Shown here piece after piece: positions 4,667 through 45,209 of a stretch of DNA of 48,064 bases. Below the pieces are notes generated by a model that was not told where the DNA came from, searched no databases, and saw only the letters and a list, made by a program, of their open reading frames with translations. Within the stretch, counting starts at the first letter, position 1; each line of letters opens with the position of its first letter. Both the position numbers and the translations under genes were made by a program. The stretch lies in assembly GCF_003173355.1 (NCBI RefSeq), contig NZ_QGMY01000010.1, positions 1-48,064 on the forward strand, in the 5' to 3' direction. Source of the stretch: Methanospirillum lacunae (GTDB lineage Archaea; Halobacteriota; Methanomicrobia; Methanomicrobiales; Methanospirillaceae).

Positions 4667-5608
<942 letters not shown>

Positions 5609-5812
5609 TTCGATATAATTTTAGCCAACCCATTACTAAATGAACATTATTAAATCGTAGATTTTACGATTTCCAAAAAATAGTGTTTTTACTTAATAAT
5701 ATTATAGGGAAAAAACGAGTATTACATGTCTCAAATTAACTTTTGTATATGCTACTTTGTTAAACAAATGGATGCAAAAAAAGAATTTTTATCATTCTAG
5801 GAGAATTGAATT

Positions 5813-7084
5813 ATGGAAATAACCGTAGTCGGGGGAGGATATGTTGGACTGGTCACATCGGTTTGTTTTGCAGATATGGGGCATAGGGTCAGGATTATCG
5901 AGATTGACCCCCAAAAAGTGGAATTGATAAACAAGGGAATCCCCCCGATATATGAAGATAATCTTGAAGAGATACTAAAGAAAAATATAGGCAAGAATTT
6001 AACTGCCCAGTCAGATTACCAATTCATTGAAAAATCGGATGTTTTTTTTATCTGCGTCGGTACACCTCCTCAGGAGGATGGATCAGCCAATCTCCGCTAT
6101 CTCTCACAAGCTGCTGAATCAATTGGACAGGCTTTGAGAGATTCAACAATCTTTCAGGTAATCACTGTAAAAAGCACAGTTCCCCCTGGAACTACAGAAT
6201 CTGTTGTAATTCCGGCAGTTATAAAGAGTTCAGGGAGGACTAAAGACTCAATAGGATTCTGTATGAATCCTGAATTTCTCCGTGAAGGAAGAGCGATCAA
6301 AGATTTTAAAAATCCTGATCGAATTGTGATTGGAGGGAATTCAGATATTGCAATTCAGGTTGTGAGAGACGTATACTCAGGTTTTTCAGCACCAACTATC
6401 ACAACTTCATTAAAAGCAGCAGAAATGATAAAATACGCATCTAATTCATTTCTAGCAATGAAAATTTCCTTTGCCAATGAGATCGGAAATTTATGCAAAA
6501 AACTGGGAATAAATGTTTATGATGTGATGAACGGTATAGGATATGATCATAGAATAAATCCATATTTCCTAAATGCAGGGCTTGGTTTTGGCGGAAGTTG
6601 TTTTCCCAAAGACGTGATGGCATTAATACGGTTAGCTGAAAAGAACGATTTGGACCCTCTCTTATTGCAGTCGGTAATTGCCGTCAATGAAAAACAGCCG
6701 AATAAGATCATATCTCTCTTGAAAGAACGTATTGGATCAGTGAGTGGTAAACGGATTGCTATCCTTGGACTGGCGTTTAAAGACAATACTGATGATGTCA
6801 GGGATTCAAGGGCAATTCCGGTCATACAAAGTCTTCTCGATGAAGGAGCAGATGTCGTTGCATATGATCCCATGGCAATTGCTTCTATGAAAATCTATTA
6901 CCCGGATATCCAATATAGAAATACAGCTGGAGATGCCCTTGATGGAGCAGATGCCTGCCTCGTCCTCACCGAGTGGCCGGAATTCAGGGATATTGATACG
7001 TGTTTTGACCGGATGAAATCACGAGTAATTATTGAAGGTAGAAAAATTCTCTCGATTGAGGGAGTCGAAGGAATATGCTGGTAA
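5813..7084 (+). CDS. ugd: UDP-glucose 6-dehydrogenase
   Basis: Oxidises UDP-glucose twice, using NAD, to UDP-glucuronate. The N-terminal Rossmann site is GGGYVG (residues 7-12). The middle domain has the STVPPGTT and MNPEFLREGRAI signatures. The catalytic cysteine sits in GFGGSCFPKD as C263. The C-terminal UDP-binding domain contains GLAFKDNTDDVRDSRA. The 423 aa is the standard length. ATG 5813 is preceded by AGGAG at 5799-5803, one of the better ribosome binding sites in the window, so this may be the head of an operon that runs to 10785. A UDP-ManNAc dehydrogenase is the main alternative, but the GalU and decarboxylase neighbours support UDP-glucose. Confidence 0.92.
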   Translation: MEITVVGGGYVGLVTSVCFADMGHRVRIIEIDPQKVELINKGIPPIYEDNLEEILKKNIGKNLTAQSDYQFIEKSDVFFICVGTPPQEDGSANLRYLSQAAESIGQALRDSTIFQVITVKSTVPPGTTESVVIPAVIKSSGRTKDSIGFCMNPEFLREGRAIKDFKNPDRIVIGGNSDIAIQVVRDVYSGFSAPTITTSLKAAEMIKYASNSFLAMKISFANEIGNLCKKLGINVYDVMNGIGYDHRINPYFLNAGLGFGGSCFPKDVMALIRLAEKNDLDPLLLQSVIAVNEKQPNKIISLLKERIGSVSGKRIAILGLAFKDNTDDVRDSRAIPVIQSLLDEGADVVAYDPMAIASMKIYYPDIQYRNTAGDALDGADACLVLTEWPEFRDIDTCFDRMKSRVIIEGRKILSIEGVEGICW

Positions 7085-7087
7085 ATT

Positions 7088-7972
7088 ATGGTGCAAAAAG
7101 TCAGAAAAGTAGTAATTCCGGCAGCAGGTCTAGGTACCAGATTTCTCCCCATAACAAAGGCTCAACCAAAAGAGATGCTACCGGTGGTGGATAAACCTGT
7201 CATCCAGTATGTTGTTGAGGAAGCAGTTGCATCCGGTATAGACGATATAATCATTGTTACGGGTAGAAACAAACGGGCAATCGAAGATCACTTTGACCGG
7301 TGCATTGAACTTGAGCATGTATTTCCATCAAACCAAGGATCAGGTGCCTCAGATGCTTATGTTGATTTGAGTGATATTCCTAACATTCATTACATCAGAC
7401 AGAGGGAACCGAGGGGACTAGGAGATGCCATTCTACTATCAGAAAAACATTGTAATGATGAGCCCTTTGTTGTTCTTCTTGGAGACACCATCACAATAGC
7501 GCCTGAAAATGAGAAGACCTGTACAAGCCAAATGATTCATGCTTATACAAAATATGGTCAATCAATAATTGCAGTCGAACCGGTCCCAGAAAAGAAAATT
7601 CCGGATTATGGCATTATTGATGGTAATCTCATCGATAAAAATTTCTATGAAATTAAGAATATCGTAGAAAAACCTACCATAAGCGACGCCCCCTCAAATC
7701 TTGGTGCTATTGGATGTTACCTTTTCACTCCCGAAATTTTTTCATGTCTTAAACAGACCACTCCGGGTAAAGGAGGAGAGATTCAACTCACGGATGCGAT
7801 AAAAAAACTTTCTCATTCTATAGGGATGATCACTAACTGTCGCAGGTATGATATTGGTGATAAGATTGGATGGATGAAAGCTTTTTTTGAGCTAGCTCTG
7901 TCACGTAAAGAATTTCATGATGATCTCATGTCAATTCTACAAGAAAAAGTATGTACAAGGAGAAATGAATGA
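7088..7972 (+). CDS. galU: UTP--glucose-1-phosphate uridylyltransferase
   Basis: A nucleotidyltransferase that makes UDP-glucose from UTP and glucose-1-phosphate, the substrate of the Ugd encoded just upstream. The signature AAGLGTRFLPITKAQPKEML lies near residues 12-31, followed by DKPVIQYVVEEA. The loop EPVPEKKIPDYGIIDG and the IVEKP motif in the second half are typical of GalU rather than of dTDP- or CDP-glucose enzymes. Its 294 aa matches the family. It begins three bases after the ugd stop codon and overlaps the next gene by four bases (ATGA), so the three genes form one transcription-translation unit for the UDP-glucose to UDP-glucuronate route. Confidence 0.92.
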   Translation: MVQKVRKVVIPAAGLGTRFLPITKAQPKEMLPVVDKPVIQYVVEEAVASGIDDIIIVTGRNKRAIEDHFDRCIELEHVFPSNQGSGASDAYVDLSDIPNIHYIRQREPRGLGDAILLSEKHCNDEPFVVLLGDTITIAPENEKTCTSQMIHAYTKYGQSIIAVEPVPEKKIPDYGIIDGNLIDKNFYEIKNIVEKPTISDAPSNLGAIGCYLFTPEIFSCLKQTTPGKGGEIQLTDAIKKLSHSIGMITNCRRYDIGDKIGWMKAFFELALSRKEFHDDLMSILQEKVCTRRNE

Positions 7973-8976
7973 GTACTTCAATTTCGAAGTCAGAGGATAT
8001 TGAAATAATTCTCGCCGGTCTGAATAATGTCGATTTCAATGGTCAGACGATATTAGTAACCGGTGGATCCGGATTTCTCGGTTCCTGGATGTGTGAGGCC
8101 CTACTCAATAAAGGTGCAGAGGTCATTTGTCTTGATAATTATGCATCCGGAAGACCTGAAAATACAAATCACCTCCTTGATCACCCAGGTTTTACCAGAA
8201 TAGTCCATGATATATCAAAACCATTTGATCCTAAACGGCAAATTAATCTGGTATGTCATCTCGCTTCCCGGGCAGGCCCACTTGAATTTGAACATTATCC
8301 TATCCAGATTCTAAAATCAAATACCTTAGGGACAATGCATTCGCTTGGCATTGCAAAAAAGTATGGTGCTCGCCTCTTATTCACTTCTACCAGTGAGATA
8401 TATGGAGAAGCAACAGTGTTCCCAACACCTGAAACCTATCGGGGTAATGTTAATACTCTGGGTATCAGAGGATGTTATGATGAGGCGAAGCGGGCTGGTG
8501 AGGCCTATTGTATGGCATATCATCGTCAGCATGGTCTTGACGTCAGAATTGTCCGGATATTTAACACATACGGACCACGAATGCGCTCAGATGGGCATTA
8601 TGGAAGGGTAATTCCCAGATTTTTATCACAGGCGAAAAATAATCAACCAATCACCATATTTGGAGATGGAACCCAGACCCGTTCATTTTGTTATGTGACC
8701 GATCAGATCATCGGGTTGCTGAGGCTGGCAGGGCTTCCGGGGTTGGCAGGGGAAGTGGTGAATATTGGGAATCCAACGGAGCATACTGTTATCGGTCTTG
8801 CAAATATAATAAAAAATCTCCTGAATTCATCATCTTCTTTTATGTATAATCCGCACCCCCAGGATGATCCTATGCGAAGATTTCCAGATATATCTAAAGC
8901 TAAAAAGTTACTCCATTTTGAGCCACAAATTGGTTTAGAAAAAGGGCTTATCCGTGTCATTGAGGGTACATATTAA
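7969..8976 (+). CDS. UDP-glucuronate decarboxylase-like SDR (UDP-xylose synthase type)
   Basis: An extended SDR predicted to oxidise UDP-glucuronate at C4, decarboxylate it and reduce it to UDP-xylose. The NAD site TGGSGFLG is at residues 31-38, after a roughly 25-residue N-terminal extension. The catalytic region reads TSTSEIYG (139-146), with the Y-x3-K pair Y170 and K174 in CYDEAKRAGE. RIFNTYGPRM is the hallmark block of UDP-xylose synthases. The usual ACPASP stretch reads ASRAGP here, a small departure. Overlap with galU and proximity to ugd make UDP-glucuronate the natural substrate. A dTDP-glucose 4,6-dehydratase or UDP-sugar 4-epimerase is possible but less likely. The product could also be the 4-keto pentose if reduction is inefficient. 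Confidence 0.78.
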   Translation: MSTSISKSEDIEIILAGLNNVDFNGQTILVTGGSGFLGSWMCEALLNKGAEVICLDNYASGRPENTNHLLDHPGFTRIVHDISKPFDPKRQINLVCHLASRAGPLEFEHYPIQILKSNTLGTMHSLGIAKKYGARLLFTSTSEIYGEATVFPTPETYRGNVNTLGIRGCYDEAKRAGEAYCMAYHRQHGLDVRIVRIFNTYGPRMRSDGHYGRVIPRFLSQAKNNQPITIFGDGTQTRSFCYVTDQIIGLLRLAGLPGLAGEVVNIGNPTEHTVIGLANIIKNLLNSSSSFMYNPHPQDDPMRRFPDISKAKKLLHFEPQIGLEKGLIRVIEGTY

Positions 8977-9872
8977 TGAAAATAACGCTGGTTGTCCCCG
9001 CATATAATGAAGAGCAGGCAATAGGCCCTGTTATTGAAGAATATTATCCATATGTTGATGAAATCCTTGTAGTTGATGATGGTTCATCAGACAAAACTTA
9101 TGAAATCGCCTGTAGTTATTCTGATGAAAAAGTCTTTGTAAACAGGCACGAGCAAAATCAGGGAAAGGTCGGAGCACTAATGACTGGTGTAAAAAACGCC
9201 ACTGGAGACATCATTGTATTTACTGATGCAGACTGCACATATCCTGCCCGATATATCCCTGCTTTTGTCGAAGAACTGAATAAAGGTGCTGATCTGGTTT
9301 TAGGTTCCCGGGTAATTCAATCTGAAAATATTCCATTATTTAATCGGGTAGGTAATACAATCTTTTCCACACTTGCGACCTACATCAGTGGTAAGGAGAT
9401 TGTTGATGGACAGACCGGGATGCGGGCCTTTAAAAAAAGTATGTTTGATTCATTGCATGTCCAGGCAAAAGGTCTTGAATTTGAGACGAAGATGACAGTC
9501 CGTGCAGCAAAATTAGGATATATTATCGTTGAAATCCCCATTGAATATCGTGAGAGAGTTGGGGTTTCTAAACTTCATCCGGTGCGGGATGGATATCGAA
9601 TGTTTCGTGCGTTGATATCCATTGCCTGGAACGAAACATCACCATTAGCGAAAATGATTTCGGTGCCTGGAATTCTGTTTATTGGAATTGGAATGGTTTT
9701 TGGAATTTATAGTATATACGAACGTGTTTCTCATTATTATCTAACTCATGAGTTTTACCCATTGATATCTGGCTTTTTGATCTTATTTGGGTTACAACTT
9801 TCTTCGATTGGCCTCATCATCGATTATCTGGCAAAAAAATTGGATAGAATTGAAGAGCGGTTGAAAAAATGA
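8976..9872 (+). CDS. Polyprenyl-phosphate glycosyltransferase (ArnC/DPM-like GT2)
   Basis: A membrane-anchored GT2 enzyme predicted to transfer a sugar from a nucleotide donor to polyprenyl (dolichyl) phosphate on the cytoplasmic face. The catalytic domain begins VVPAYNEEQAIGPVIEEYYP, with VVDDGSSDKT near 34-43, a TDADCTYP metal site near 84-91 and an EYRERVGVSKLHP tail. Two hydrophobic C-terminal segments follow: one begins at SVPGILFIGIGMVFGIY and a second surrounds ISGFLILFGLQLSSIGLIID. The ATG shares its A with the preceding TAA stop, so it is coupled to the decarboxylase. I infer a lipid-phosphate pentose product from that context. A dolichol-phosphate mannose or glucose synthase is the alternative. 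Confidence 0.85.
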   Translation: MKITLVVPAYNEEQAIGPVIEEYYPYVDEILVVDDGSSDKTYEIACSYSDEKVFVNRHEQNQGKVGALMTGVKNATGDIIVFTDADCTYPARYIPAFVEELNKGADLVLGSRVIQSENIPLFNRVGNTIFSTLATYISGKEIVDGQTGMRAFKKSMFDSLHVQAKGLEFETKMTVRAAKLGYIIVEIPIEYRERVGVSKLHPVRDGYRMFRALISIAWNETSPLAKMISVPGILFIGIGMVFGIYSIYERVSHYYLTHEFYPLISGFLILFGLQLSSIGLIIDYLAKKLDRIEERLKK

Positions 9873-10432
9873 AAGAGGAATTATTTGAACCCTTGTTTAG
9901 GAAGATGAGAGTCAATCGCATTTTGCCTTGGATCCCAAAAAATGCAACGCTCTGTGATATTGGGTGTGGATTTGATGCTCAATTTTTAAAAATGATTTCG
10001 CCCTCTATTAAAAGGGGGTATGGGTTTGATCGAAAAGTTAACTCCAAACTTCAGGGAAATTTGACCATCCAATCTTATGATTTAAATAATCCTCTTCCAC
10101 TTCCTGATAATTCGGTTGATTGTGTTACATTGCTTGCAGTACTTGAACATCTTTCAAATCCAATTACAGTTTTTGCAGAAATCAGACGGATATGCCGCTC
10201 CAATGGAAGGATTATTCTTACAACACCGACACCTCTTAGTAAACCCATTTTAGAATTCCTATCCTTCCGAATGGGGCTTGTAAGTTCCCAGGAAATTTCT
10301 GATCATAAACATTACTGGTCGCTAGAAGAAATTCGTAATCTGTTAAAACAGTTCGACTTTCATGTTGTTGAACTAAATACTTTTTCTATCGGATTAAACT
10401 CGTTTGCGGTTGCAGAAAAAGTGACTGAATGA
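9869..10432 (+). CDS. Class I SAM-dependent methyltransferase
   Basis: A small Rossmann methyltransferase of 187 aa. The SAM-binding motif I is LCDIGCGFD near residues 28-36. An acidic partner lies in YGFDRKV, and NSVDCVTLLAVLEHLSNP is the usual post-II motif. NGRIILTTPTPLSKP belongs to motif III. It overlaps the upstream glycosyltransferase by four bases and the downstream membrane protein likewise, so it belongs to the lipid-linked sugar operon. The likely role is O-methylation of the transferred sugar or of a lipid-linked intermediate, but the sequence does not fix the substrate. Confidence 0.78.
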   Translation: MKEELFEPLFRKMRVNRILPWIPKNATLCDIGCGFDAQFLKMISPSIKRGYGFDRKVNSKLQGNLTIQSYDLNNPLPLPDNSVDCVTLLAVLEHLSNPITVFAEIRRICRSNGRIILTTPTPLSKPILEFLSFRMGLVSSQEISDHKHYWSLEEIRNLLKQFDFHVVELNTFSIGLNSFAVAEKVTE

Positions 10433-10785
10433 ATGTAATTATTATTATCATAATTGGGATTTTATTTGCCTCATTTGGACAGATACTCTGGAAAATTGGG
10501 ATGAATGAAATTGGAGTTGTGAGTGAAATATCTGTTGAGGGAATTACACATATTGTTTTAAACCCATATATTTTCGGAGGACTTTTTAGTTATGGTATTG
10601 GAACGTTGTTCTGGTTAATTGCTCTTTCAAGAGCTGAGTTATCTTTTGTATATCCATTTATTGCATTAACATTTGTTATAATTTTTATGGCTTCTTTTTT
10701 TCTATTCCATGAAAATATTAGTTTTCAGAGATTAATTGGTGCTGTGATTATTGTGATTGGTATTGTGGTACTGGTAAAAGGGTAA
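10429..10785 (+). CDS. EamA/SMR-type small membrane protein (ArnE/ArnF-like flippase subunit)
   Basis: A 118 aa protein with four predicted membrane helices: the N-terminal IIIIIIGILFASFGQILWK, then segments around 50-65, 70-92 and 95-117. The pattern is that of one half of a drug/metabolite transporter, with FASFGQILWKIGM near the start and ALSRAELSFVYPFIAL in the third helix. In Gram-negative bacteria the ArnE/ArnF pair moves undecaprenyl-phosphate-aminoarabinose across the membrane. Here it is coupled by a four-base overlap to a methyltransferase and an ArnC-like enzyme, so flipping of a lipid-phosphate sugar is a reasonable inference. Only one subunit is present, so it would have to act as a homodimer. 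The gene ends four bases from the convergent gene at 10790. Confidence 0.78.
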   Translation: MNVIIIIIIGILFASFGQILWKIGMNEIGVVSEISVEGITHIVLNPYIFGGLFSYGIGTLFWLIALSRAELSFVYPFIALTFVIIFMASFFLFHENISFQRLIGAVIIVIGIVVLVKG

Positions 10786-10789
10786 TTCT

Positions 10790-12649
10790 TCAATATAAAT
10801 CATTATGAGTTTGACTATTAGTTTCAAAATAGAACATTGTGTAAAACCCATTTTTGGGATCCTTAATGATCTTAATGGTAGGATCAAAATCCGGAGTGTT
10901 TGGAAGAGGAGCATTCCACACCTGATCAGTTAACTCACTGGGTGGAACAAAAATTGTTTCACCGTCATTAGTGATATGTGCTGATACGTTCATATCGGGC
11001 ATTGAAGGAAGTAGCCCTTTTTCATTTATTTTTAATAAACCGGTATCCTGATACAATCCAAGAAAAGTAATACCTGAAAAAATGATACATCCCATAATAA
11101 AATATTTTTTCCAGGTATTGCTCAATCGGGGATTAGGATATTTTATTTTTAAAAATGGGTACACAAATAATAGTAATGGAAAAGAATAAAGAAATCCAAT
11201 TCCAAATCTGGGTTCTGGCGCTGAAACGAACCAGAATAGTAACCCTACAATTGTCACTAATAATGGATATAACATTATCAGGAAAGAGTTATTCCAATCT
11301 AAAATGATGTCTGAATTGTAAATATTATATAAAAAAATGAGTGTTACTATACATGCCACAATAATTAGTCCAATGCACAAAAAAAACCTGGGCGTAGTAA
11401 TAATACGATGGAACCATTCATTCATCCATGAAATAGTACCTAATGACTCCATATAGTTTGGGCCAGGAAGTCTTGCCCATCCTGTTATGGCGTCTGCTTC
11501 AGCTTTTGTTTGTTGAGCAGAAACGGACCATGGAAAAAAAGATAACGAACCATATGATAATGGATAAATTGGGTTTCCAGATAGTAATATTCCCCTTATA
11601 ATCAAAGGGATAGTTAAAAGGAAAAATATTAGGTAGCAATATTCAGGTATTGATCTCAACATGGTTTTTAGATCTGTAAAAAAAGTAAAGAGACCTGAGT
11701 TTTTTATATGGTTTAAATTAATTATCCTGATGAAAACTGCCAACAGTGTCATCGGTATCATAATCACTGCAGATAATTTAATGGCAGTAGAAAAGAGTGC
11801 CAGAATGAATGGTGCCCAGGTACAAAAATCATAAAGATCCGTTTTTTCTTCGATCATTTTTATGAGAAAGAAGAATTGAACCAACGTTAAAATGAAAACC
11901 GGGTAATCTGGAGATGGATTTGATAAATAGAATCTGGATTCAAATATTACCGGAAGTATGGAAAGAAGGAGAAACATTTCATGAGCAGATAATGGGTTTA
12001 ATCCACCCTGTAATTGTTTAACGATACCTTTCAATGAGGAAGAAGACATTTCACTCCATCTGTCCTGTATGACTTCTGTCACCAGAGTTGAGTAAAAGAA
12101 GAAAAGAATTGCATTGATTATAAAAACTGGTCGATTAAACCATATTACACTCTGATCTATCATGGCACTGATGGGGAGCCATGCGCAATTAAACCCCAAC
12201 CTCCCATGCAGATTTGCGAGGCCTAATGGAATTGGGTATTCAATCATCCATTTTATTGCAGGAAGGTGGTAAAGGCCTGTATCTGTTCCATGAATCCAAT
12301 TATATACAGTACAGTAAAAAAGAAATAGAACACCAAAAAAAAGGGCTAATATTGAGAATTTCTGCTGAATTCTGATCTTATTCGTAATTAGATGAATACT
12401 TGTCATAACAATCCCTACAAAAAGGATTGCAATTGAGATTTCAGATGATATTGGAATAAATATATTTATCAAACTTGTTAATACGAAGATAATGATAAAA
12501 CCAAAGATTCCATAATTCCAAATCAGATATTTATGGATCGGATACTTTTTTAGAACGTAGGTCGCAAAAAATGAGCCATATCCAAATAATGAAACAATCC
12601 AGGCAAAAAAGAGGAGAATTAATATAATTAGCTGTAAGGCAGGGTTCAT
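10790..12649 (-). CDS. Large polytopic membrane protein, GT-C-like (paralogue A)
   Basis: A 619 aa integral membrane protein with at least ten hydrophobic segments, and soluble or extracytoplasmic loops near 110-170 and at the C terminus. A motif DTGLYHLPAIKW (residues 123-134) falls in the first large loop, where GT-C glycosyltransferases carry catalytic acidic residues. LHGRLGFNCAWLPISAMIDQ follows. Later blocks read LSGNPIYPLSYG, WARLPGPNYMESLG and APEPRFGIGFLY. A paralogue at 16151-17953 keeps all of these. I infer a sugar transferase using a lipid-phosphate donor, but I do not recognise a characterised family. The C-terminal VWNAPLPNTPDF segment is also shared. It converges on the lipid-sugar operon. 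Confidence 0.82.
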   Translation of the reverse strand: MNPALQLIILILLFFAWIVSLFGYGSFFATYVLKKYPIHKYLIWNYGIFGFIIIFVLTSLINIFIPISSEISIAILFVGIVMTSIHLITNKIRIQQKFSILALFFGVLFLFYCTVYNWIHGTDTGLYHLPAIKWMIEYPIPLGLANLHGRLGFNCAWLPISAMIDQSVIWFNRPVFIINAILFFFYSTLVTEVIQDRWSEMSSSSLKGIVKQLQGGLNPLSAHEMFLLLSILPVIFESRFYLSNPSPDYPVFILTLVQFFFLIKMIEEKTDLYDFCTWAPFILALFSTAIKLSAVIMIPMTLLAVFIRIINLNHIKNSGLFTFFTDLKTMLRSIPEYCYLIFFLLTIPLIIRGILLSGNPIYPLSYGSLSFFPWSVSAQQTKAEADAITGWARLPGPNYMESLGTISWMNEWFHRIITTPRFFLCIGLIIVACIVTLIFLYNIYNSDIILDWNNSFLIMLYPLLVTIVGLLFWFVSAPEPRFGIGFLYSFPLLLFVYPFLKIKYPNPRLSNTWKKYFIMGCIIFSGITFLGLYQDTGLLKINEKGLLPSMPDMNVSAHITNDGETIFVPPSELTDQVWNAPLPNTPDFDPTIKIIKDPKNGFYTMFYFETNSQTHNDLY

Positions 12650-12673
12650 TATTATGAATATGTTGGGTGAATT

Positions 12674-12688
12674 CTTTTTTATATTTTG
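12674..12688 (-). promoter_or_regulatory. Candidate archaeal TATA box for the 619 aa membrane protein
   Basis: On the minus strand AAAATATAAAAAA lies about 30-40 bases before the ATG at 12649. That would place transcription within roughly ten bases of the start codon, as expected for a short or absent leader in archaea. In such an A+T-rich region TATA-like strings are common, so this is only a candidate. Confidence 0.25.
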
Positions 12689-12751
12689 GTAATTTTTTCT
12701 CCCGATTCGACTAAATCATAGGGTTTTACAGTTAATCATAATAATATAGAA

Positions 12752-13120
12752 TTGCAACACCAGAAACTTAAGAATTTGTTTAATTCAAGTAGAGCAATTG
12801 AAAACAGTACAAAAATTCAGAATTTACTCAGAAAATTGGTTAAATTTTTTAATGACTCGGCTGATTGTATTTCTTTACGTTTAAAAATTGAGGATTTATT
12901 AGCATTTAACAAAAATGCAGTTATATGGGAGCCTTTATATAGTTACACTAAAACATCAGCCCATATAACTGCAAAATTGAATTCACTATTATTGGGAATA
13001 ATGTTTTTACCTGATTCAGACGTAAAAAGAAAATTAAACATGTTGCTGAGTGATGAGTTTAGGAGGGAACTAATCCTATTCATACATGTGAAAAAAACCG
13101 TGGTTTTTTCGCTATCTTGA
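12752..13120 (+). CDS. Hypothetical protein, doubtful
   Basis: An open frame of 122 codons that would have to start at TTG 12752 and has no visible ribosome binding site. The predicted product is helical and lysine- and leucine-rich (segments such as NLLRKLVKFFND and RLKIEDLLAF), with no signal peptide, membrane helix or known motif. It lies alone between two minus-strand genes. Composition is as A+T-rich as the surrounding intergenic DNA. It may be a real small accessory gene, a remnant, or chance. I cannot assign a function. Confidence 0.25.
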   Translation: MQHQKLKNLFNSSRAIENSTKIQNLLRKLVKFFNDSADCISLRLKIEDLLAFNKNAVIWEPLYSYTKTSAHITAKLNSLLLGIMFLPDSDVKRKLNMLLSDEFRRELILFIHVKKTVVFSLS

Positions 13121-13216
13121 TAAAATGAAATGAAAGACCTATTAAAAAATTAAACTCCTTACAGGCGGTGTTTAATGAATACTTACTTCTACTATCTTCT
13201 CACGATGTGATTTTCA

Positions 13217-14035
13217 TTAAGGATCATGATGTCTTTTTGTTAATATTATCATAGGATATTGACCATATTTACAGAAAAGTTTAGGAAACCTCTCTTCAAG
13301 ATAATACAGAATTTTCAGAATTTTTTTTCCCAATTTATTATTTGGAATTAACAATTTTTGAGTTGAACTATCGAAAGAACGCCAAGGAACCATTTTTATT
13401 GTGGCAATTTCATCAAATCTTCTCCACCATTTATTTGGATGTGGATAAAAATATAGATCATTTACTGTTCCTCCTTCCTTTTCTCTTTTTTTTCGATTAA
13501 TAATTCTCAACAGTCCCTTTGCTATCCAGTTATTAAGGAAAAATGCATTTGGATTTGAATATACAATAATTATATTTTTCCCAGGTTTAGTAACATCAAT
13601 TAATTTTCTAATAACTTCATCTTGATTATCTTTATCGATATGATAAATTGTGTGAAGACTAACTGAACAATCAAAAAAATTTTTCTTTAGATCAATGTCC
13701 AAAAAATTACCACAAATAAAGACTCCATGATCACCAATCTTCGCTTTCGCTTGATCTAATGCTCCTTGAGAAAGATCAACACAATATCTAAATAAAAAAT
13801 TTTTAGAATATTCTAAATATTCTTTATATTGAATAGGCCCAGATGCCATATCTAGGATATTAACTCCAAAATCAGGAATATATTTAAGAACTCTTAATCT
13901 ACATTTACTCACATATTCACGTGAGTTCTCTCTCAAATCTTCAAATCTTATAGCATCTTCTGTTTCATTTCCACTTATAATCCATCCGATTTCATCATAA
14001 AACGTTTTTACCGATATTTCCACATTATTTCTCAT
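13217..14035 (-). CDS. Class I SAM-dependent methyltransferase
   Basis: A 272 aa methyltransferase. The SAM site is NILDMASGPIQY near residues 59-70, where the usual GxGxG is replaced by MASGP, a variant seen in some glycan methyltransferases. A matching acidic residue lies in YCVDLSQGALDQAK. HTIYHIDKDNQDEVIRKLID corresponds to motifs II and III. The C-terminal third (WWRRFDEIATIKMVPWRSFD) is probably the acceptor region. It is a single gene, divergent from the GT-C protein at 14538 across a 502-base gap. It probably methylates a sugar of the same glycan; the target is unknown. Confidence 0.75.
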   Translation of the reverse strand: MRNNVEISVKTFYDEIGWIISGNETEDAIRFEDLRENSREYVSKCRLRVLKYIPDFGVNILDMASGPIQYKEYLEYSKNFLFRYCVDLSQGALDQAKAKIGDHGVFICGNFLDIDLKKNFFDCSVSLHTIYHIDKDNQDEVIRKLIDVTKPGKNIIIVYSNPNAFFLNNWIAKGLLRIINRKKREKEGGTVNDLYFYPHPNKWWRRFDEIATIKMVPWRSFDSSTQKLLIPNNKLGKKILKILYYLEERFPKLFCKYGQYPMIILTKRHHDP

Positions 14036-14506
14036 AAAAAAGCCTTATAATATAATATCATTGGTTAGATTAAATTTACGGACGATATAAAATTGCATTT
14101 ATTTGCTAGAATCTATCCAACTAGTCAATATAGCACCCTCCTAAACATACCAATCAGCGGTCAGTTTAATTTTCTTTTTATGTCTGAATCAGTTAATAAC
14201 GAGAATCCCAATAAAAGTGAGTGCATTTAAGTATCCAGTATTTGCTTTTATAATAATCAATTTTTATAATTTGTTCATTATCACCTATAGGCGAAAGTGA
14301 CACCAATACAAGGTTCTGTGAAAATCATTATTCATATTTTTATTACAGCATATTATAAATCATTACGTAAGAAAATTAATGCGTGAAACTTTGATTTTAC
14401 CAACTCAAGGAAGAATGAAAGAAAAAAAATCTCCCGATTATACCATTCTTAAACTTCGATGATAAAGCAGATTAGCGTTCATATATTGGTGGATGTATAT
14501 CTCCAT

Positions 14507-14515
14507 CTTATATTA
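14507..14515 (+). promoter_or_regulatory. Candidate TATA box for a leaderless GT-C transcript
   Basis: CTTATATTA is centred about 27 bases before the ATG at 14538, the spacing expected for an archaeal TATA box of a leaderless mRNA. No Shine-Dalgarno sequence precedes this ATG, which fits a leaderless transcript. Evidence is spacing and composition only. Confidence 0.3.
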
Positions 14516-14528
14516 GTAATTATTACTA
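14514..14528. repeat. Perfect 7-bp inverted repeat near the GT-C start codon
   Basis: TAGTAAT at 14514-14520 and ATTACTA at 14522-14528 form an exact palindrome with a one-base centre. It overlaps the TATA-like element and ends nine bases before the ATG. A dimeric regulator bound here would block transcription start. Chance palindromes are not rare in A+T-rich DNA, so function is uncertain. Confidence 0.35.
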
Positions 14529-14537
14529 GAGTTTAAG

Positions 14538-16112
14538 ATGGAATTATTAATGGACGGAAAAAAAAACTTTAAGGACCCCAACAACATTGTTATTTTTTTT
14601 GTTCTCATTTTTTTCCTCATATATTATTTAATATTTAGGTGGGATAGTGTTTTCTGGGCACCATTGACCCCTACAGATGCATCTCATTATGTTGAAATCG
14701 CAGTTCATTTAACTCAAGGAGAAATCTTCCAGTCAGGTGGGTTTCCTTTTGGGTTTCCAGCACTTCTTGCCCTATCAATTTTAATAATGGGACCTGGAAG
14801 TTTTTCTTTGCAATTCCCTATTATTATTTGTTTAGTCCTGTGCCTTCTCGTTTTATATTTAATAGCAAAAAAGAAAATTGGTGTTTTGAATTCACTAATT
14901 TTAGTTTTTTTGGTAGGATTCTCGCCGTATCTTTTAATCTATAAAGGATGGGTGATGTCAGAAATCCCTTTCACTCTTGTGTTTCTATTTTTTGTGTTTC
15001 TCCTTGATAGAAATTATAACCCATATAATCATACTGCAAATCCCTTTGAAAATATATGTATAGGTATATCGGTTGGAATAGGATGTATGATTAGATCTGT
15101 AGGATATGTCCTGATACCGATTTTATTAATCACTCAACTAATTCATTTATTTATTGAAAACGATTATTCAAAAAAGAAATTATTTTCTCTATTCACTCCA
15201 TATTTTGTGTTTGCTCTAATTTATATACCATATCTAATCATTTTTCGGTTTTGGGGACAGAAATACACCAGCCATACATATGGATGGTGGCAATGGGTTT
15301 ATGCTAATATTTCGGGGTATGCAACGTGTCTTACAGTTTATTTTCCCGGAGGTAATTATTACTGGATTAATTCCCTTTTCTATACACTCTTTGTCTGTTT
15401 TCTTCTCTATTCTTTATCTGTTTTTTTTCGAAAAGAATATCCCATAATTATTTCCTTTTTTATTTATCTAATAGTTATAACACTCTGGCCTTTTGACCAA
15501 AGAGAACGATTTATTCTTCCAGTCTTCCCCATCTTTATTTACCTTGCCATTCGGGGTATTGATCACATTCAAGAAGTAATTTCTAGGTGTTTTGATCACG
15601 GTAACTTGCGTAGCAGATTATCTAAAGTTATTTTACCCGTTATTTGTGTTATATTTATTTTTGCTACCCTCTATTGTGATATACCCCTCTTTGTCAATCA
15701 ATATCATATTTTTGGTGAACACCAAGCAATTATACAAAGAGATGAAGGTAATGACATTTTCCGTCCGTATGGTTACTTAAATTCATTAGATACGAATGAA
15801 AGTATGGAATTATTCCATTATATTAAAGGTAATATGGAAAAAACCAGTACAATCGCATTTCAGTTTAATGGATATCTAATGATGTATGTGGGTAAATTTA
15901 CACCATGTGGATATCCAATAACTTCTTCGAGAGATGTGGAATTGATTCCAATAGCACAAAAATGTCATTCAGATTTTATTATTATTCATAACATTGATGA
16001 GGATGCAATAAAAATTTTAAACAGTGACACTAGATATCACCGAGTTTTTTTAAATACTATCTATAGTGTCTATAGCCATAATATTTTGAATTCTACGGAC
16101 AATTCAAATTAA
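14538..16112 (+). CDS. ArnT/PMT-like GT-C membrane glycosyltransferase
   Basis: A 524 aa membrane protein with about ten to twelve predicted helices and a C-terminal extracytoplasmic region of roughly 140 residues. The first loop carries PTDASHYVEIAVHLTQGEIF (residues 45-64), the position of the catalytic D/E-x-x-x-Y region of GT39/GT83 enzymes, followed by GFPFGFPALLALS. The MSEIPFTLVFLFFVF helix and the DQRERFILPVFP segment before a late helix are also typical. Such enzymes move a sugar from polyprenyl phosphate to an acceptor outside the membrane, so this is the best candidate user of the lipid-linked sugar made by the 5813-10785 operon. Two similar-sized GT-C-like paralogues flank it. Acceptor and sugar are inferred, not shown. 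Confidence 0.8.
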   Translation: MELLMDGKKNFKDPNNIVIFFVLIFFLIYYLIFRWDSVFWAPLTPTDASHYVEIAVHLTQGEIFQSGGFPFGFPALLALSILIMGPGSFSLQFPIIICLVLCLLVLYLIAKKKIGVLNSLILVFLVGFSPYLLIYKGWVMSEIPFTLVFLFFVFLLDRNYNPYNHTANPFENICIGISVGIGCMIRSVGYVLIPILLITQLIHLFIENDYSKKKLFSLFTPYFVFALIYIPYLIIFRFWGQKYTSHTYGWWQWVYANISGYATCLTVYFPGGNYYWINSLFYTLFVCFLLYSLSVFFRKEYPIIISFFIYLIVITLWPFDQRERFILPVFPIFIYLAIRGIDHIQEVISRCFDHGNLRSRLSKVILPVICVIFIFATLYCDIPLFVNQYHIFGEHQAIIQRDEGNDIFRPYGYLNSLDTNESMELFHYIKGNMEKTSTIAFQFNGYLMMYVGKFTPCGYPITSSRDVELIPIAQKCHSDFIIIHNIDEDAIKILNSDTRYHRVFLNTIYSVYSHNILNSTDNSN

Positions 16113-16136
16113 AGGGTTATTTCAGACAATCCCTTT
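16111..16136. terminator. Candidate bidirectional terminator hairpin
   Basis: AAAGGG at 16111-16116 and CCCTTT at 16131-16136 are perfect inverted complements around a 14-base loop. The hairpin overlaps the stop codon of the 14538-16112 gene and lies between two convergent genes that are 38 bases apart. A T-rich stretch follows. Factor-independent termination in archaea depends mainly on T-runs, so this is tentative. Confidence 0.35.
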
Positions 16137-16150
16137 GTTATTGCAATTCT

Positions 16151-17953
16151 TTATTCGTTAGTGGTAAACATGATATATTGTCTGGTGATCCTATCCCGGG
16201 TTATCGATAAATTTTCATCAAAATATATTGAATTTGGAAGAGGGAGATTCCATGTTTGATCAGTATTTTCTGGAATAATAATTCTTTCTCCGCTATTGGT
16301 GGTATTTATAGTATATGAAACCTCTGGAAATACTGGGATTTCACCATTGTTATTAAATAATCCTACGTAATATGGCCCCATCAACGTAGCTGAGATAAGG
16401 AATTGTCCGATGAGAATTACAATAAGGATTTTAACCAAATAGGATGAAAATGGTCTTTTTAGTATTATATACGGAAATAATAAAATAACAATTGGCAACG
16501 CATATAGAAATCCTAAAGCGAATCGAGTGTCTGGAGCACTCATAAACCAAAAGGTGAGTCCCGCAAGGATTAATACAAGAGGATAGCATGAGATGATAAT
16601 TTTTTTACTCTCTTGTAATTCCATTTCAGGTTTCACTGAAAAATACAATACAATTCCTACTAAAATTAGTGCTCCACTGACTGTCACAATCAAAGGCATT
16701 TGGTGTACAATAAATTGGTCTATCCAATCCCATATCCAAGAGTTATTACCAAGTGAATCTTTATAATGAACTCCAGGAAGTCTAGCCCAGGCAGTAACAT
16801 CCTCTGCTGCAACTCTAGTTGTTTCAGCAGAAGTAGCCCATGGTAAATAACTTTGTGAACCTATTGCTATAGGAAAAATCGGATTACCAGAGAGAATAAT
16901 CCCCCTTATTGTCATGGGAATAAAAATGATCAGAAAAAAAAACCAACAATATCTAGGTATATTACGTAAAAAAGGGAAAATTGTTTTCGGTAGTATTGGC
17001 ATCTCAACTAATTCCCTCGTTGATCTGATTTTTATTTGAGAAAAAAACAAAAAAAGTGCAGACATTAATAAGAGTAATATCGCTGATAATTTTATTGCAA
17101 ATGCGAATGATGCAATTATGATTGAAATCCATGTTTGAAAATTATCGACTTCTGTTTCCTCTTCAACTAATTCAATTGCATTTCCTATCACTGTCAGTGT
17201 TAAGAGGAATATTGGAAAATCTGGTGAGGGGCTTGATAAGAATATTGGTGTCACATAGGTTACCGGAAGAATGGTCAATAAGAAAAACCAGTCCTTACAG
17301 TTCAGTGATCTAACAAACGTGGATATTTTTGAAGTAGATATTGAGAATATGTTCTGGCGGATTTCTTTGATGAATGGCTTTAAAATATCCCCAATAAGAG
17401 TTGTATAGAAAAAAAGAAGTATCCCATTGATCAAAAAAATGGGCCTATTCAATAATATACTCCCTTGATCAATTAAGGCACTTAATGGAAACCAGATACT
17501 ATTAAACCCAAATCGAAAATGAAGGTTAGCCAGGCCAAAGGGTGTTATATTATTGATAATCCATTTAATTGCAGGCAGATGATATAGTCCAGTGTCATAA
17601 TAGTTAGACCATCCAAAAATTACTGCATAATAAATGATGAATGTGACTAATCCATATAATACAATTATCTGATAATTTGGCTTTATTTTGATAAACTGTA
17701 TGGATCCAAGAATTAATCCAATTATTAGAATAATACTTGCAATTAAAAGAGAAATTGGTAAGAAAATATTAATAATTGTTATTAAAGAACTTAAAAAAAT
17801 GAGACCAAATAATCCTGATATCCAAATGATATTACTCGGAATAGGGCACTTCAAGGTGAAGAGTTTCGCAATGTAATGGCCATAACTATAAACCGCAACA
17901 ATCCATCCCACAAAAAGAATGTAAAAAATTATGAAGTATAAAATATTGTCCAT
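16151..17953 (-). CDS. Large polytopic membrane protein, GT-C-like (paralogue B)
   Basis: A 600 aa membrane protein, clearly paralogous to the 619 aa protein at 10790-12649. Shared landmarks in order are YDTGLYHLPAIKW (residues 119-131) in the first big loop, FGFNSIWFPLSALIDQG, ILSGNPIFPIAIGSQS, WARLPGVHYKDSLG, APDTRFALGFLYALP and the C-terminal TWNLPLPNSIYFDE. About ten helices are predicted. The conserved acidic D120 with Y124 and H125 resembles a GT-C catalytic loop. It converges with the ArnT-like gene. I infer transfer of a lipid-linked sugar to the surface glycan. An O-antigen-ligase-like or polymerase role is an alternative. No characterised homologue is recognised. Confidence 0.82.
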   Translation of the reverse strand: MDNILYFIIFYILFVGWIVAVYSYGHYIAKLFTLKCPIPSNIIWISGLFGLIFLSSLITIINIFLPISLLIASIILIIGLILGSIQFIKIKPNYQIIVLYGLVTFIIYYAVIFGWSNYYDTGLYHLPAIKWIINNITPFGLANLHFRFGFNSIWFPLSALIDQGSILLNRPIFLINGILLFFYTTLIGDILKPFIKEIRQNIFSISTSKISTFVRSLNCKDWFFLLTILPVTYVTPIFLSSPSPDFPIFLLTLTVIGNAIELVEEETEVDNFQTWISIIIASFAFAIKLSAILLLLMSALFLFFSQIKIRSTRELVEMPILPKTIFPFLRNIPRYCWFFFLIIFIPMTIRGIILSGNPIFPIAIGSQSYLPWATSAETTRVAAEDVTAWARLPGVHYKDSLGNNSWIWDWIDQFIVHQMPLIVTVSGALILVGIVLYFSVKPEMELQESKKIIISCYPLVLILAGLTFWFMSAPDTRFALGFLYALPIVILLFPYIILKRPFSSYLVKILIVILIGQFLISATLMGPYYVGLFNNNGEIPVFPEVSYTINTTNSGERIIIPENTDQTWNLPLPNSIYFDENLSITRDRITRQYIMFTTNE

Positions 17954-21598: not shown

Positions 21599-22384
21599 TT
21601 ATTTGATTTTGGAACTATCATTCATTTTGCCTACAATAGCAATATTCCATGTTTTTTCAGAAATTGTTCCTTCAATATTAGAAGCCGGAAATATCCGCAT
21701 AATTTCTAATTGGCAATTTTCAAAAAAGTATGCAATTTCTTGAGCAAAGAAAAACCTCATCACATGCTCTTCCCTTGTTTCAGAAATAACCCGATCTCCT
21801 TGAATATCCCATACCTGAAATTTAACGGTAACACAATGTCGAAAACTATCAAGTTCTCCAGAAGAGGCACGGATGACTTTTCGGTCACCCTCTTCAATCA
21901 CTTTTACTTTATCACTAGGCTTCTCATGAAGTACTGAAGGGCCATACCAGACATCGCAAATAAAAAGTCCACCGGGTTTGAGATGTTCCTGCACAGTTTG
22001 TAAGGCATGTTGAATGTCTTCATTTTTAAGGTGATATCCAAGGACCGCGAACATCATAATGACAACATCGAATTTTTCAGATGTTCGAAAGTCACGGATA
22101 TCTGATTGATAAAACTTACAAGATAGTTCCTTTTCCTGGGCCTTCTTCCGGGCAATTTCAAGCATTTCTTCCGAGCGATCAACCCCACAGACCTGGTATC
22201 CTCTCTTTGCAAGCCGAAGTGTATGGTTACCTGTTCCACATCCTAGATCGAGAATAGATAGTACTGCCTGGTTTGCATGTTCCTTGATAATCTCCTCAAG
22301 AAGGTTGCATTCGGCATCGTAATCCTTGTCTTGATAGAGAAGATCATATGTATCTGCGTAGTCCTTTCCAAAGAGAGTATTCAT
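21599..22384 (-). CDS. SAM-dependent methyltransferase, DesVI/TylM1-like (aminosugar N-methylation)
   Basis: A 261 aa class I methyltransferase. It has GKDYADTYDLLYQDKDYDAE near the start, the SAM motif ILDLGCGTGNH (44-54), the acidic DRSEEMLEIARKKA, SDIRDFR, and a long MFAVLGYHLKNEDIQHAL block before a HLKPGGLF strand. This order matches DesVI/TylM1 enzymes that N,N-dimethylate amino-dTDP-sugars. It overlaps the DegT-type aminotransferase gene by four bases, so the pair would form an amine and then methylate it. That function is inferred from family resemblance and coupling. O-methylation remains possible. Confidence 0.75.
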   Translation of the reverse strand: MNTLFGKDYADTYDLLYQDKDYDAECNLLEEIIKEHANQAVLSILDLGCGTGNHTLRLAKRGYQVCGVDRSEEMLEIARKKAQEKELSCKFYQSDIRDFRTSEKFDVVIMMFAVLGYHLKNEDIQHALQTVQEHLKPGGLFICDVWYGPSVLHEKPSDKVKVIEEGDRKVIRASSGELDSFRHCVTVKFQVWDIQGDRVISETREEHVMRFFFAQEIAYFFENCQLEIMRIFPASNIEGTISEKTWNIAIVGKMNDSSKIK

Positions 22385-23514
22385 GATGACAGAATCTCCT
22401 TTACTGCATTACTCACCGTTGCTATCTGCTCTGAAGTGATAGTTAGTCCTGAGGGAAGATATAAACCCTGCCCCGCAATTCTCTCTGCGATTGGATATTT
22501 TTCATCTTTGAACAATCCCATTTTTTGGAATACTGGTTGTTCATGCATTCCAATAAAAAAAGGGCGTGTTTCAATTCCTTTTTCTAATAATCTCAAAGAA
22601 AATTCAGTATTGTCCATTCCCGTTTCTTCAGAAAGAACAAAAGCATACATCCAGTAAACACTCTTAGCCCATTGCTCCTCAATGGGTAACTGTAGACCAG
22701 AGAGTTCCTCAAGTTGATGAGAATATTCTTGCGCCATCCATCTTTTTTTAGTAATGATATCATCCATTCTCTCTATCTGGGCAACTCCAAGAGCTGCTTG
22801 TATGTTAGTGAGCCGAAAGTTATTGCCGAGGGATTCGTGATAGAACCTCCTGGGAGGCTGAAAATAAAGGTTCAGATACGCCCGAGCTTTCTTCGCCAAA
22901 ACCTCGTCATCGGTAAGGACCATACCGCCTTCTCCAGTAGTAATCAGTTTGTTTGCATAGAAACTGAAACAACTGAAGGTTCCAAAACTACCACATCTTC
23001 GCCATGTATTCGATGAATGGCATTGTGTCTGGTATTCAGCTCCATGGGCTTCAGCAGCGTCTTCTATGATTGCAAGATTATGATCTTCTGCTAGGTCTAA
23101 CAGAGGATCCATGTCTACCGGGTGCCCATAGATATGTACAGGCATAATTGCCTTTGTTTTTGATGTGATTTTTTCTGCGACGTGATCAACGTCCATCGTC
23201 CAGAGTTTGGGATCACTATCGACAAGTACCGGAGTCCCATTATTATTCACTATTGCAAGGGCACATGAGATGATTGTAAAAGTTGGCATAATCACCTCAT
23301 CGCCAGGTTTCAGACCTAAACAATGTACAGCGACATCAAGGGCTGTAGTGCCATTAGAGACTGCAATTCCATATTGGCGGTTACAATATGTAGCCCATTG
23401 TTCTTCGAACTGATCTATATATTTCCCGGCAGAAGATATCCAACCACTTTTGATGCAGTCGGTAATATTTTCCAGTTCTTTGCCACATAGGAAGGGTTCA
23501 CTTACAGGGATCAT
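22381..23514 (-). CDS. DegT/DnrJ/EryC1-family sugar aminotransferase
   Basis: A PLP-dependent aminotransferase acting on a keto sugar nucleotide. The frame opens at TTG 23526, but I choose ATG 23514 because the protein then begins MIPVSEPFLCGKE, the normal start for this family. Length is about 377 aa. The PLP lysine is in SFYANKLITTGEGG (about residue 189), with the cofactor aspartate in IIEDAAEAHGA (about 152). SNGTTALDVA near residue 53 binds the phosphate. A substrate-loop FRLTNIQAALGVAQ is present. No 4,6-dehydratase lies beside it, so the substrate may come from RfbG (38018-39103) or LegB-like (42583-43614). A perosamine-synthase-type reaction is a reasonable guess. Confidence 0.85.
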   Translation of the reverse strand: MIPVSEPFLCGKELENITDCIKSGWISSAGKYIDQFEEQWATYCNRQYGIAVSNGTTALDVAVHCLGLKPGDEVIMPTFTIISCALAIVNNNGTPVLVDSDPKLWTMDVDHVAEKITSKTKAIMPVHIYGHPVDMDPLLDLAEDHNLAIIEDAAEAHGAEYQTQCHSSNTWRRCGSFGTFSCFSFYANKLITTGEGGMVLTDDEVLAKKARAYLNLYFQPPRRFYHESLGNNFRLTNIQAALGVAQIERMDDIITKKRWMAQEYSHQLEELSGLQLPIEEQWAKSVYWMYAFVLSEETGMDNTEFSLRLLEKGIETRPFFIGMHEQPVFQKMGLFKDEKYPIAERIAGQGLYLPSGLTITSEQIATVSNAVKEILSS

Positions 23515-23703
23515 AATATTACCCAACTTCCATTATTTGTCATTTTTTCCCACTTCATATCCGAAAATACTGCACTAATGTAGGACTTAAGATCTCCTAA
23601 ATAATTTGCATTAAATTATTAATAATGAGATTTGGATGTGTTTTTTTCTCAATCTATTTCTAAATGATGATAAAAATCACACCTGTAAGTATCATTAGAG
23701 ATA

Positions 23704-40203: not shown

Positions 40204-41508
40204 TTATCCTATTTGATCCACATTCCATTCTAAAGATGGTCTGATAACTCCCGGTATCACACCGCCGTATCCTGATATTCGTGAAGGAACACCCTCAATG
40301 GGATCTGTTATATTAAACATAAGAGCATGTTTTTCCCAAAAACTAACCCTCATCCCAGTATGAATAAAGGTGAGAGCAAGATGGACTGAATACAACCCAT
40401 CGTTCATAAAATTAGCAGGGATCTCACACTTTGCAATATATTCACCGGATTTACATGATTGATCATAATTCCATGAGGGACTCGTGATAAATGCACATTG
40501 TCCCTGACTATCATATATATGAAAATTTGGGGAAGGGATTTTTGGAACATCGTTGAGTATTTTATATTGCATACAAATAAAGAATGATTTATTAATTGAA
40601 ATTTCAAAAACCTGCTCTCCCGAACGGTTTTCTATCCATGCTGCGCACAAGGTTCCTTGATGATCTCCTGGAGGGTTATCTACATGTGAATAATCAATAG
40701 TGGCAGGATTAACACAATTATTACCCATCTGATATGAAGCAATGACATCACTAGTATGTCCGATAAGTTTTATTTTTCCCGAATCTAACAATATGCACTC
40801 ATTGCATAGAGAAGATATCATAGGCATATTATGGCTTACGAATAAAACTGTCCTCCCACCTTTAGATATCTCTTGCATCTTTCCCAAACACTTTTTCTGG
40901 AAATCTGCATCCCCAACCGCTAAAACCTCATCAACCACTAAAATCTCCGGCTCCATATGGGCTGCTACAGCAAATGCAAGACGGACATACATGCCACTTG
41001 AATAACGCTTAACTGGGGTATCAATAAATTTATCTACTCCGGAAAATGAAACGATTTCATCAAATTTTGAATTTATTTCATTTTTCGTCATTCCTAATAT
41101 TGCACCATTTAAAAAAATATTCTCTCTGCCGGTCAGTTCAGGATGAAACCCAGTTCCTACCTCTAATAAACTTGCGATACGTCCTTTCACATTTATTTTA
41201 CCGGATGTAGGTGCTGTCACTCGTGATAATATTTTTAATAATGTAGACTTTCCAGCACCATTACGTCCGATGATGCCAAGAATATCTCCTTTCCTGACTT
41301 CAAATGAAATATCTTTAAGTGCCCAAAATTGTTCATTTGAACCGGTTTTAAATCCTAATAACTCAGAATTCACTTTTGTATTAGGGTCATCCCTCCCAAG
41401 AAATCTTGCCCATTTGCTTTGGAGGTCTTTTGATAATAATCCATGACTTATTACCCCAAGGCGATACTGCTTAGAAAGATTCTTTATCTGGATCACTACA
41501 TCATTCAT
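40204..41508 (-). CDS. wzt: Polysaccharide ABC exporter ATP-binding subunit with C-terminal substrate domain (Wzt-like)
   Basis: An ATPase of an ABC-2-type polysaccharide exporter, working with the permease next to it. I start at ATG 41508 (MNDVVIQIKNLSKQYRLG), which lies 16 bases after the permease stop with GAGGGAAG just upstream. The frame opens earlier, at 41577, which would overlap the permease. The Walker A motif GRNGAGKST is near residues 81-89. The signature YSSGMYVRLAFAVAAHMEP, Walker B EILVVDEVLAVGD and switch FVSHN follow. After residue 240 comes a roughly 190-residue beta-rich domain, as in Wzt proteins that recognise the chain end of their O-antigen. About 434 aa. Confidence 0.9.
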   Translation of the reverse strand: MNDVVIQIKNLSKQYRLGVISHGLLSKDLQSKWARFLGRDDPNTKVNSELLGFKTGSNEQFWALKDISFEVRKGDILGIIGRNGAGKSTLLKILSRVTAPTSGKINVKGRIASLLEVGTGFHPELTGRENIFLNGAILGMTKNEINSKFDEIVSFSGVDKFIDTPVKRYSSGMYVRLAFAVAAHMEPEILVVDEVLAVGDADFQKKCLGKMQEISKGGRTVLFVSHNMPMISSLCNECILLDSGKIKLIGHTSDVIASYQMGNNCVNPATIDYSHVDNPPGDHQGTLCAAWIENRSGEQVFEISINKSFFICMQYKILNDVPKIPSPNFHIYDSQGQCAFITSPSWNYDQSCKSGEYIAKCEIPANFMNDGLYSVHLALTFIHTGMRVSFWEKHALMFNITDPIEGVPSRISGYGGVIPGVIRPSLEWNVDQIG

Positions 41509-41524
41509 ATTTCTTCCCTCATGA

Positions 41525-44741: not shown

Positions 44742-45160
44742 ATTGTGGTATTAACTTCATTTTTAGATATTTTCCGAATAACCTTTGCTGGTACACCATA
44801 AGCAATCACTCCTTGAGGAACATTAGCATTCACAAAACTGAAGGCCCCAATTATAGATCCTTCACCTATAGTTACTCCTGGCATTATCACCGAATGTGTC
44901 CCAATACAACACCTCTTCTTAAGAACAACCTTCCCTTGTTTCTTGTCAATTGTCGAGATAGAATAAATTGAGCAATGAGATCCTATTTGCACTAGTTCTT
45001 CTATCTCAACTCCATACTTAGCATTAATGTAGGTAAATGCTCCAATATCGGTTTTGTACCCTAGTTTAAAATTATCAACACATTTAACAATCCAGTGAAA
45101 TTTTGTTGGTTCGCCATCAATGATCTCTGGATAATTCCAGGTTTCGAATCTTTCATTCAT
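44738..45160 (-). CDS. Left-handed beta-helix acyltransferase (probable N-acetyltransferase, LegH-like role)
   Basis: A 140 aa hexapeptide-repeat protein. It begins with an ERFETWNYPEIIDG segment, then a beta-helix: IGAFTYINAKYGVEIEE, VQIGSHCSIYSISTID, KKRCCIGTHSVIMPGVTIG, EGSIIGAFSFVNANV and GVIAYGVPAKVIRKI. These repeats match O- and N-acetyltransferases of polysaccharide clusters such as WlbB/WbpD. The gene sits between the aminotransferase and the nonulosonate synthase, where LegH or PseH normally acts. N-acetylation of the 4-amino group is therefore likely, although LegH and PseH can belong to other acetyltransferase folds. It overlaps legC by four bases. Confidence 0.8.
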   Translation of the reverse strand: MNERFETWNYPEIIDGEPTKFHWIVKCVDNFKLGYKTDIGAFTYINAKYGVEIEELVQIGSHCSIYSISTIDKKQGKVVLKKRCCIGTHSVIMPGVTIGEGSIIGAFSFVNANVPQGVIAYGVPAKVIRKISKNEVNTTI

Positions 45161-45209
45161 AAGGATATATGTTTAAAATTGGAGCATAAAACTCAGTGAA
45201 TCAAACCTA

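Follow-up and report, generated by a model that had tools for sequence, protein, structure and literature searches.

A run of six genes on the forward strand of DNA from Methanospirillum lacunae (positions 5813-10785) probably constitutes a supply-and-export module for lipid-linked xylose, that is, a three-component extracytoplasmic glycosylation system equipped with its own genes for UDP-xylose. The window, meaning the whole stretch of DNA that was analysed, is a complete contig (48,064 bases, C10) of a genome of 3.74 Mb in 25 contigs with a completeness of 99.9%. In the proposed scheme GalU would provide UDP-glucose, which Ugd would oxidise to UDP-glucuronate (UDP-GlcA) and a short-chain dehydrogenase/reductase (SDR) of the UDP-xylose synthase (UXS) type would decarboxylate to UDP-xylose. 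A family 2 glycosyltransferase (GT2) would place xylose from UDP-xylose onto dolichyl (polyprenyl) phosphate at the cytoplasmic face of the membrane, a protein resembling small multidrug resistance (SMR) transporters would, as a dimer, flip the lipid-sugar outward, and an enzyme of the GT-C type (most likely the protein designated GTCa, otherwise GTCb or a PMT_2 protein) would xylosylate a surface glycan or glycoprotein; a methyltransferase may methylate the sugar. Protein families, UXS residues, the gene run and its conservation are read from the sequence, and from these we infer the donor of the GT2, the flipping, the transferase and the acceptor.

The run consists of the genes for Ugd, an AglM-like UDP-glucose 6-dehydrogenase (5813-7084), GalU, the UTP-glucose-1-phosphate uridylyltransferase (7088-7972), the UXS-type SDR (7969-8976), the GT2 (8976-9872), an S-adenosylmethionine-dependent methyltransferase of the Methyltransf_23 family (9869-10432) and the SMR-like protein of 118 residues with four transmembrane (TM) helices (10429-10785). 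They are spaced by 3, -4, -1, -4 and -4 bp, and the UXS stop and GT2 start codons overlap. The original prediction had listed these genes together with the membrane proteins that follow and had described the run as tightly packed; all genes were found where it had placed them, and the spacings of -4 to +3 bp agree with its description. A scan of positions 5500-11000 for promoters and terminators yielded chance levels only, with bacterial-type models that are little informative for an archaeon.

Ugd has no other close copy in the genome (31% identity for the next best protein) and scored 460.7 bits with NCBIfam TIGR03026, above the cut-off, and 515.7 bits with the AglM model, under its cut-off of 670, while GalU reached 340.4 bits with TIGR01099 (cut-off 326.8). 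For the SDR the best match in the PDB was human UXS1 (2b69) with 301 bits, followed by 151 bits for the next different family and about 73 for ArnA, and the identity to human UXS1 amounted to 46.2% across 303 residues. Residues E143, Y170, K174, R175 and R304 correspond to E204, Y231, K235, R236 and R361 of the human enzyme, which we take to be the catalytic set of UXS, and none of them varied among the 31 sequences compared, the human one among these. With a UXS as nearest solved homologue and with Glu, YxxxK and Arg present, as in enzymes of EC 4.1.1.35 and UXS1 type, the SDR appears clearly to be of the UDP-xylose synthase type, and UDP-xylose is its expected product. The original prediction had made its reading depend on this identity, which held, and had allowed a 4-keto pentose instead; such an ArnA-type product is unlikely because the SDR is UXS-like, and an SDR of the ArnA type was rejected on the same scores. 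Since Mth373 of Methanothermobacter was already assigned as UDP-xylose synthase (PMC12820599), archaeal UDP-xylose is in itself not new. That enzyme is likewise an archaeal SDR, but it belongs to another SDR subgroup, its structures (PDB 8w3u/9ar1) matching the SDR of the window with about 100 bits as compared with 301 for human UXS1.

The GT2 matched PF00535 with 119 bits and ends in two C-terminal hydrophobic helices; among its best PDB matches are ArnC (9bhc) and an archaeal dolichyl-phosphate mannose synthase (DPMS, 5mlz). In a tree that has long branches and is indicative only, 23 module-type GT2s were split by one branch (support 90/95) from AglJ, DPMS, ArnC and two paralogues. The protein thus resembles polyprenyl-phosphate-sugar synthases, and we infer xylose as the sugar donated, which would make it a polyprenyl(dolichyl)-phosphate xylose synthase.

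The putative flippase is small, possesses four TM helices and finds its best match in the ArnE/F models, in addition to 34 bits with Pfam EamA, and the first TM helix was devoid of acidic residues in ten SMR-like homologues, the central Glu included. In SMRs of the lipid type (ArnE/F), the central glutamate present in cation exporters is often absent (PMC9574504). These features are compatible with, rather than proof of, a lipid flippase. A drug or guanidinium exporter was rejected, as profile scans gave no match to the drug-type SMR model (PF00893) and the first helix holds no acid. A profile search of the SMR set against the PDB returned no usable relative.

Conservation was analysed at the level of the order in 232 genomes (GT2 at E <= 1e-70, UXS at E <= 1e-75). 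The GT2 was detected in 12 of them and UXS in 30, and 11 of the 12 genomes with GT2 also possess UXS (Fisher 3e-10, the genomes not being independent); the only one without UXS is an assembly of 67% completeness. Restricted to good genomes, UXS was present in 6/6 with GT2 as opposed to 20/135 (5e-6, again with non-independent genomes). Wherever both genes lie on one contig (10 genomes), they are at most 7 kb apart. GT2 and SMR are neighbours at 10 of the 12 loci with GT2 in the order; in the window the methyltransferase gene separates the two. The arrangement Ugd-GalU-UXS-GT2-SMR on one strand was retrieved in Methanospirillum OWC_0038 (L039), G570 (L135) and G572 (L136); G329 (L104) and G300 (L105) show it too, with small or overlapping spacings and one TIM-barrel gene inserted. 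The module is also carried by G003, a closed genome of a cultured Methanospirillum, and the GT2 was not found in G007. A GT-C-type gene follows 3' of SMR in L039, where it belongs to the LIC_10190 family, in L136, where Glyco_transf_22 was matched above its cut-off, and in L104 and L105, where it belongs to a family with PMT_2 matches and extra C-terminal sequence. In five distant genomes the GT2 is unlinked to UXS, yet a UXS is encoded at another place; the base rate of UXS refers to the order only. Both the module and its conservation are real, and the arrangement is not due to chance, as it recurs across archaeal families; the conserved gene order for which the original prediction had called was thereby found, including in part the GT-C gene.

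Three membrane proteins in the window may act as terminal enzyme. GTCa (10790-12649, reverse strand, 619 residues) is a polytopic protein of the LIC_10190 family (NF047510, 174.2 bits) and is encoded convergently to the six-gene run, 4 bases from the end of the SMR-like gene. After a further methyltransferase gene on the reverse strand follows the PMT_2-type protein as an alternative candidate (14538-16112, forward strand; PF13231, 31.6 bits, cut-off 26.1), and then GTCb (16151-17953, reverse strand, about 600 residues; NF047510, 158.7 bits), a paralogue 40% identical to GTCa; both LIC_10190 scores exceed the cut-off of 100. The original prediction had three GT-C-like proteins, the first ArnT-like, directly after the run. 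Three membrane proteins do follow, but two of them are convergent on the opposite strand and hence not part of one transcript, and a PMT/ArnT-type Pfam match was confined to the protein at 14538. In G248, representing a distant archaeal family, SMR, methyltransferase and a GTCa homologue of the LIC_10190 family (660 residues) stand in a row adjoining GT2 (L110:10685-13640), which suggests that these genes form a sub-cassette that can be transferred and involves a methylated sugar, and because methyltransferase, SMR and LIC_10190 protein recur there, GTCa is the best transferase candidate in the window. Its homologue in L039 lies 3' of SMR in the same direction. LIC_10190 proteins share an invariant DTGxYH motif. 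Other copies of the module carry other GT-C types, and the terminal enzyme would therefore be exchangeable, as in bacterial serotype-converting systems. Searching the PDB with profiles of the F42 GT-C set gave no relative.

Several observations weigh against a dedicated xylose module. The best NCBIfam model for the GT2 is AglJ (TIGR04182; 170.5 bits, cut-off 325), and the ArnC model gave 80 bits, its cut-off being 529; likewise the SMR-like protein stays below the cut-offs of ArnF (51.8 bits, cut-off 99) and ArnE (40.8 bits, cut-off 92). GTCa is located on the strand opposite to the run, its LIC_10190 family occurs in just 3/232 genomes of the order, and its AlphaFold model, based on a 3-row alignment, had a mean pLDDT (predicted local distance difference test) of 37, which like the value of 42 for the PMT_2 protein is too poor to be used. 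Two loci of the order (L034, L080) show no SMR adjoining GT2. UXS is present without GT2 in 19 genomes of the order, so UDP-xylose must have other uses too.

As a refinement of the xylose module, it is possible, if rather doubtful, that the final sugar is modified, either to methyl-xylose by the protein encoded at 9869 or to arabinose by SDR epimerisation. The methyltransferase gene is situated inside the run, and its product may methylate the pentose; the homologue beside SMR and the GTCa-type gene in L110 is 49% identical. Similarly, the TIM-barrel gene, which resembles sugar isomerases, lies within the operon of L104 and L105, the fullest ones, between UXS and GT2 (L104:10518-11372, L105:10188-11084), and could alter the pentose. 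Most copies of the module, however, contain no methyltransferase, and no dedicated UDP-xylose 4-epimerase was identified.

Less probable is a scheme in which the GT2 starts a multi-sugar N-glycan by loading the first sugar, xylose or a hexose, onto dolichyl phosphate in the manner of AglJ, the chain being extended and transferred by AglB, with SMR and GT-C proteins incidental or otherwise employed. The AglJ model is, as mentioned, the best for this GT2, the N-glycan of Haloferax is assembled on dolichol monophosphate (PMC5744192), and the source genome (G000) contains three oligosaccharyltransferases of AglB type on contigs C7, C18 and C16 (L123-L125), the one on C16 adjoining a GT2 that scored 175 bits to AglJ. 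The GT2 of the module, though, stays far under the AglJ cut-off, and it was rejected as AglJ because the true orthologue, with 431 bits, is a different gene elsewhere in the genome; moreover, it is accompanied by SMR and a GT-C gene, and inspection of the module loci revealed no AglB.

It is about equally improbable that two separate systems are merely adjacent, UDP-xylose or UDP-GlcA feeding the glycosyltransferases that the surrounding polysaccharide locus provides in the cytoplasm and the GT2 being an unrelated GtrB-like maker of polyprenyl-phosphate glucose or mannose. In the order, Ugd-GalU-UXS is commonly found in the absence of GT2, and the specificity of a GT2 is not readable from sequence. 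Yet the GT2 is almost never encountered without UXS, the two are linked wherever a locus of the order can be resolved, and in the window their codons overlap. Very improbable, finally, is a true aminopentose pathway with an ArnA-like SDR releasing UDP-4-keto-pentose for an aminotransferase of the window: DegT-type aminotransferases are encoded at 22381-23526 and 43611-44741, but for both the highest scores come from the LegC and PseC models, the SDR is far closer to UXS1 than to ArnA, and the cluster has no formyltransferase or ArnD domain.

Among known systems, the module resembles the Arn pathway of Gram-negative bacteria (ArnA/B/C/D/E/F/T), a resistance pathway, in that UDP-GlcA would be decarboxylated to a pentose, loaded onto polyprenyl phosphate by an ArnC-type GT2, flipped by an SMR-type protein and transferred outside by a GT-C enzyme. 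It differs by UXS in place of ArnA and by a single SMR gene instead of the Arn pair; the carrier is expected to be of archaeal dolichyl type, the acceptor cannot be lipid A, and the GT-C enzyme is a candidate rather than a recognised ArnT orthologue. Pfam and NCBIfam scans of the cluster proteins detected no aminotransferase, formyltransferase or ArnD deformylase domains. Since ArnB, formyltransferase and ArnD are missing from the cluster and the ArnC/E/F scores lie below cut-off, the module would work like Arn without being a member of it. The claim of the original prediction that no aminotransferase stands beside the module is correct for the cluster, the two DegT-type genes, 12-33 kb away, being closer to LegC/PseC than to ArnB. 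Its core, namely UDP-xylose supply, lipid loading, flipping and a neutral pentose, appears well supported by families, catalytic residues, gene order and co-occurrence, unlike the ArnT-like followers.

Three-component extracytoplasmic glycosylation is established in bacteria, and in the pentofuranose system of Citrobacter the pentose derives from phosphoribosyl pyrophosphate (PRPP) and is a furanose (PMC11127046). As in GtrABC and the Citrobacter system, a lipid-phosphate-sugar synthase, a small flippase and a variable GT-C enzyme would be encoded together: the GT2 of synthase type, with its TM helices, is found beside a small flippase-type protein with four TM helices, and putative GT-C partners are represented by PMT_2 and Glyco_transf_22 matches in the copies of relatives, by PMT_2 at 14538 and by GTCa and GTCb as candidates. 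In contrast to those systems, the pentose would arise by decarboxylation of UDP-GlcA and not from PRPP, the donor is expected to be a pyranose, the genes for UDP-sugar supply belong to the same run and the host is an archaeon. In Haloferax, the dolichyl-phosphate-mannose branch AglD/AglR/AglS (PMC5744192) is comparable as an archaeal lipid-monophosphate sugar that is flipped before a distinct membrane transferase makes use of it; there the sugar is another one, whereas in the window a candidate flippase of SMR type and the genes for the nucleotide sugar belong to the same run.

More tentatively, we suggest that several archaeal families possess a self-sufficient operon for dolichyl-phosphate-xylopyranose, a counterpart of Arn with a neutral pentose, in which an ArnE/F-like flippase serves interchangeable GT-C enzymes, including LIC_10190 proteins as a new GT-C kind, and which leads to xylosylated or methyl-xylosylated surfaces. 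Under the names tried, no paper on polyprenyl-phosphate xylose was found, only bacterial undecaprenyl-phosphate xylofuranose; subscription literature was outside the search, and this is weak evidence. If the reading of the module is right, it would provide an archaeal pathway for lipid-linked xylose and give both an archaeal ArnE/F-like protein and the membrane proteins of the LIC_10190 family a role that can be tested directly; it would also extend the logic of Arn to a neutral pentose outside Gram-negative bacteria and predict that sheathed methanogens carry a pentose at their surface.

Some further observations concern relatives and the remainder of the contig. In L033:5275-9199 and L036:10616-14550, two further SDRs stand after Ugd-GalU-UXS, together with a GT2 that is fused to a membrane domain of the lysylphosphatidylglycerol-synthase type; the same sugar may be employed there in another lipid-linked role. 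In L029:234-4822, L031 and L032 the module adjoins genes that, judging by their translations, would encode subunits of formylmethanofuran dehydrogenase. The whole contig of the window looks like a surface-glycan locus. At 22381-23526 and 42583-47886, LegC/PseC-like aminotransferases, a PseB-like dehydratase and a NeuB/PseI-like synthase represent a pathway for a sugar of nonulosonic-acid type in the same surface polysaccharide locus, and at 40204-42379 a pair of ABC-2 type polysaccharide exporter genes, judged from translations, stands beside nucleotide-sugar genes. At 1420-2430 on the forward strand, a former gene for GDP-mannose 4,6-dehydratase is disrupted, its remnant being distributed among three reading frames; it is about 41% identical to intact copies in relatives, and an intact GDP-L-fucose-synthase-like SDR lies downstream at 4670-5608.

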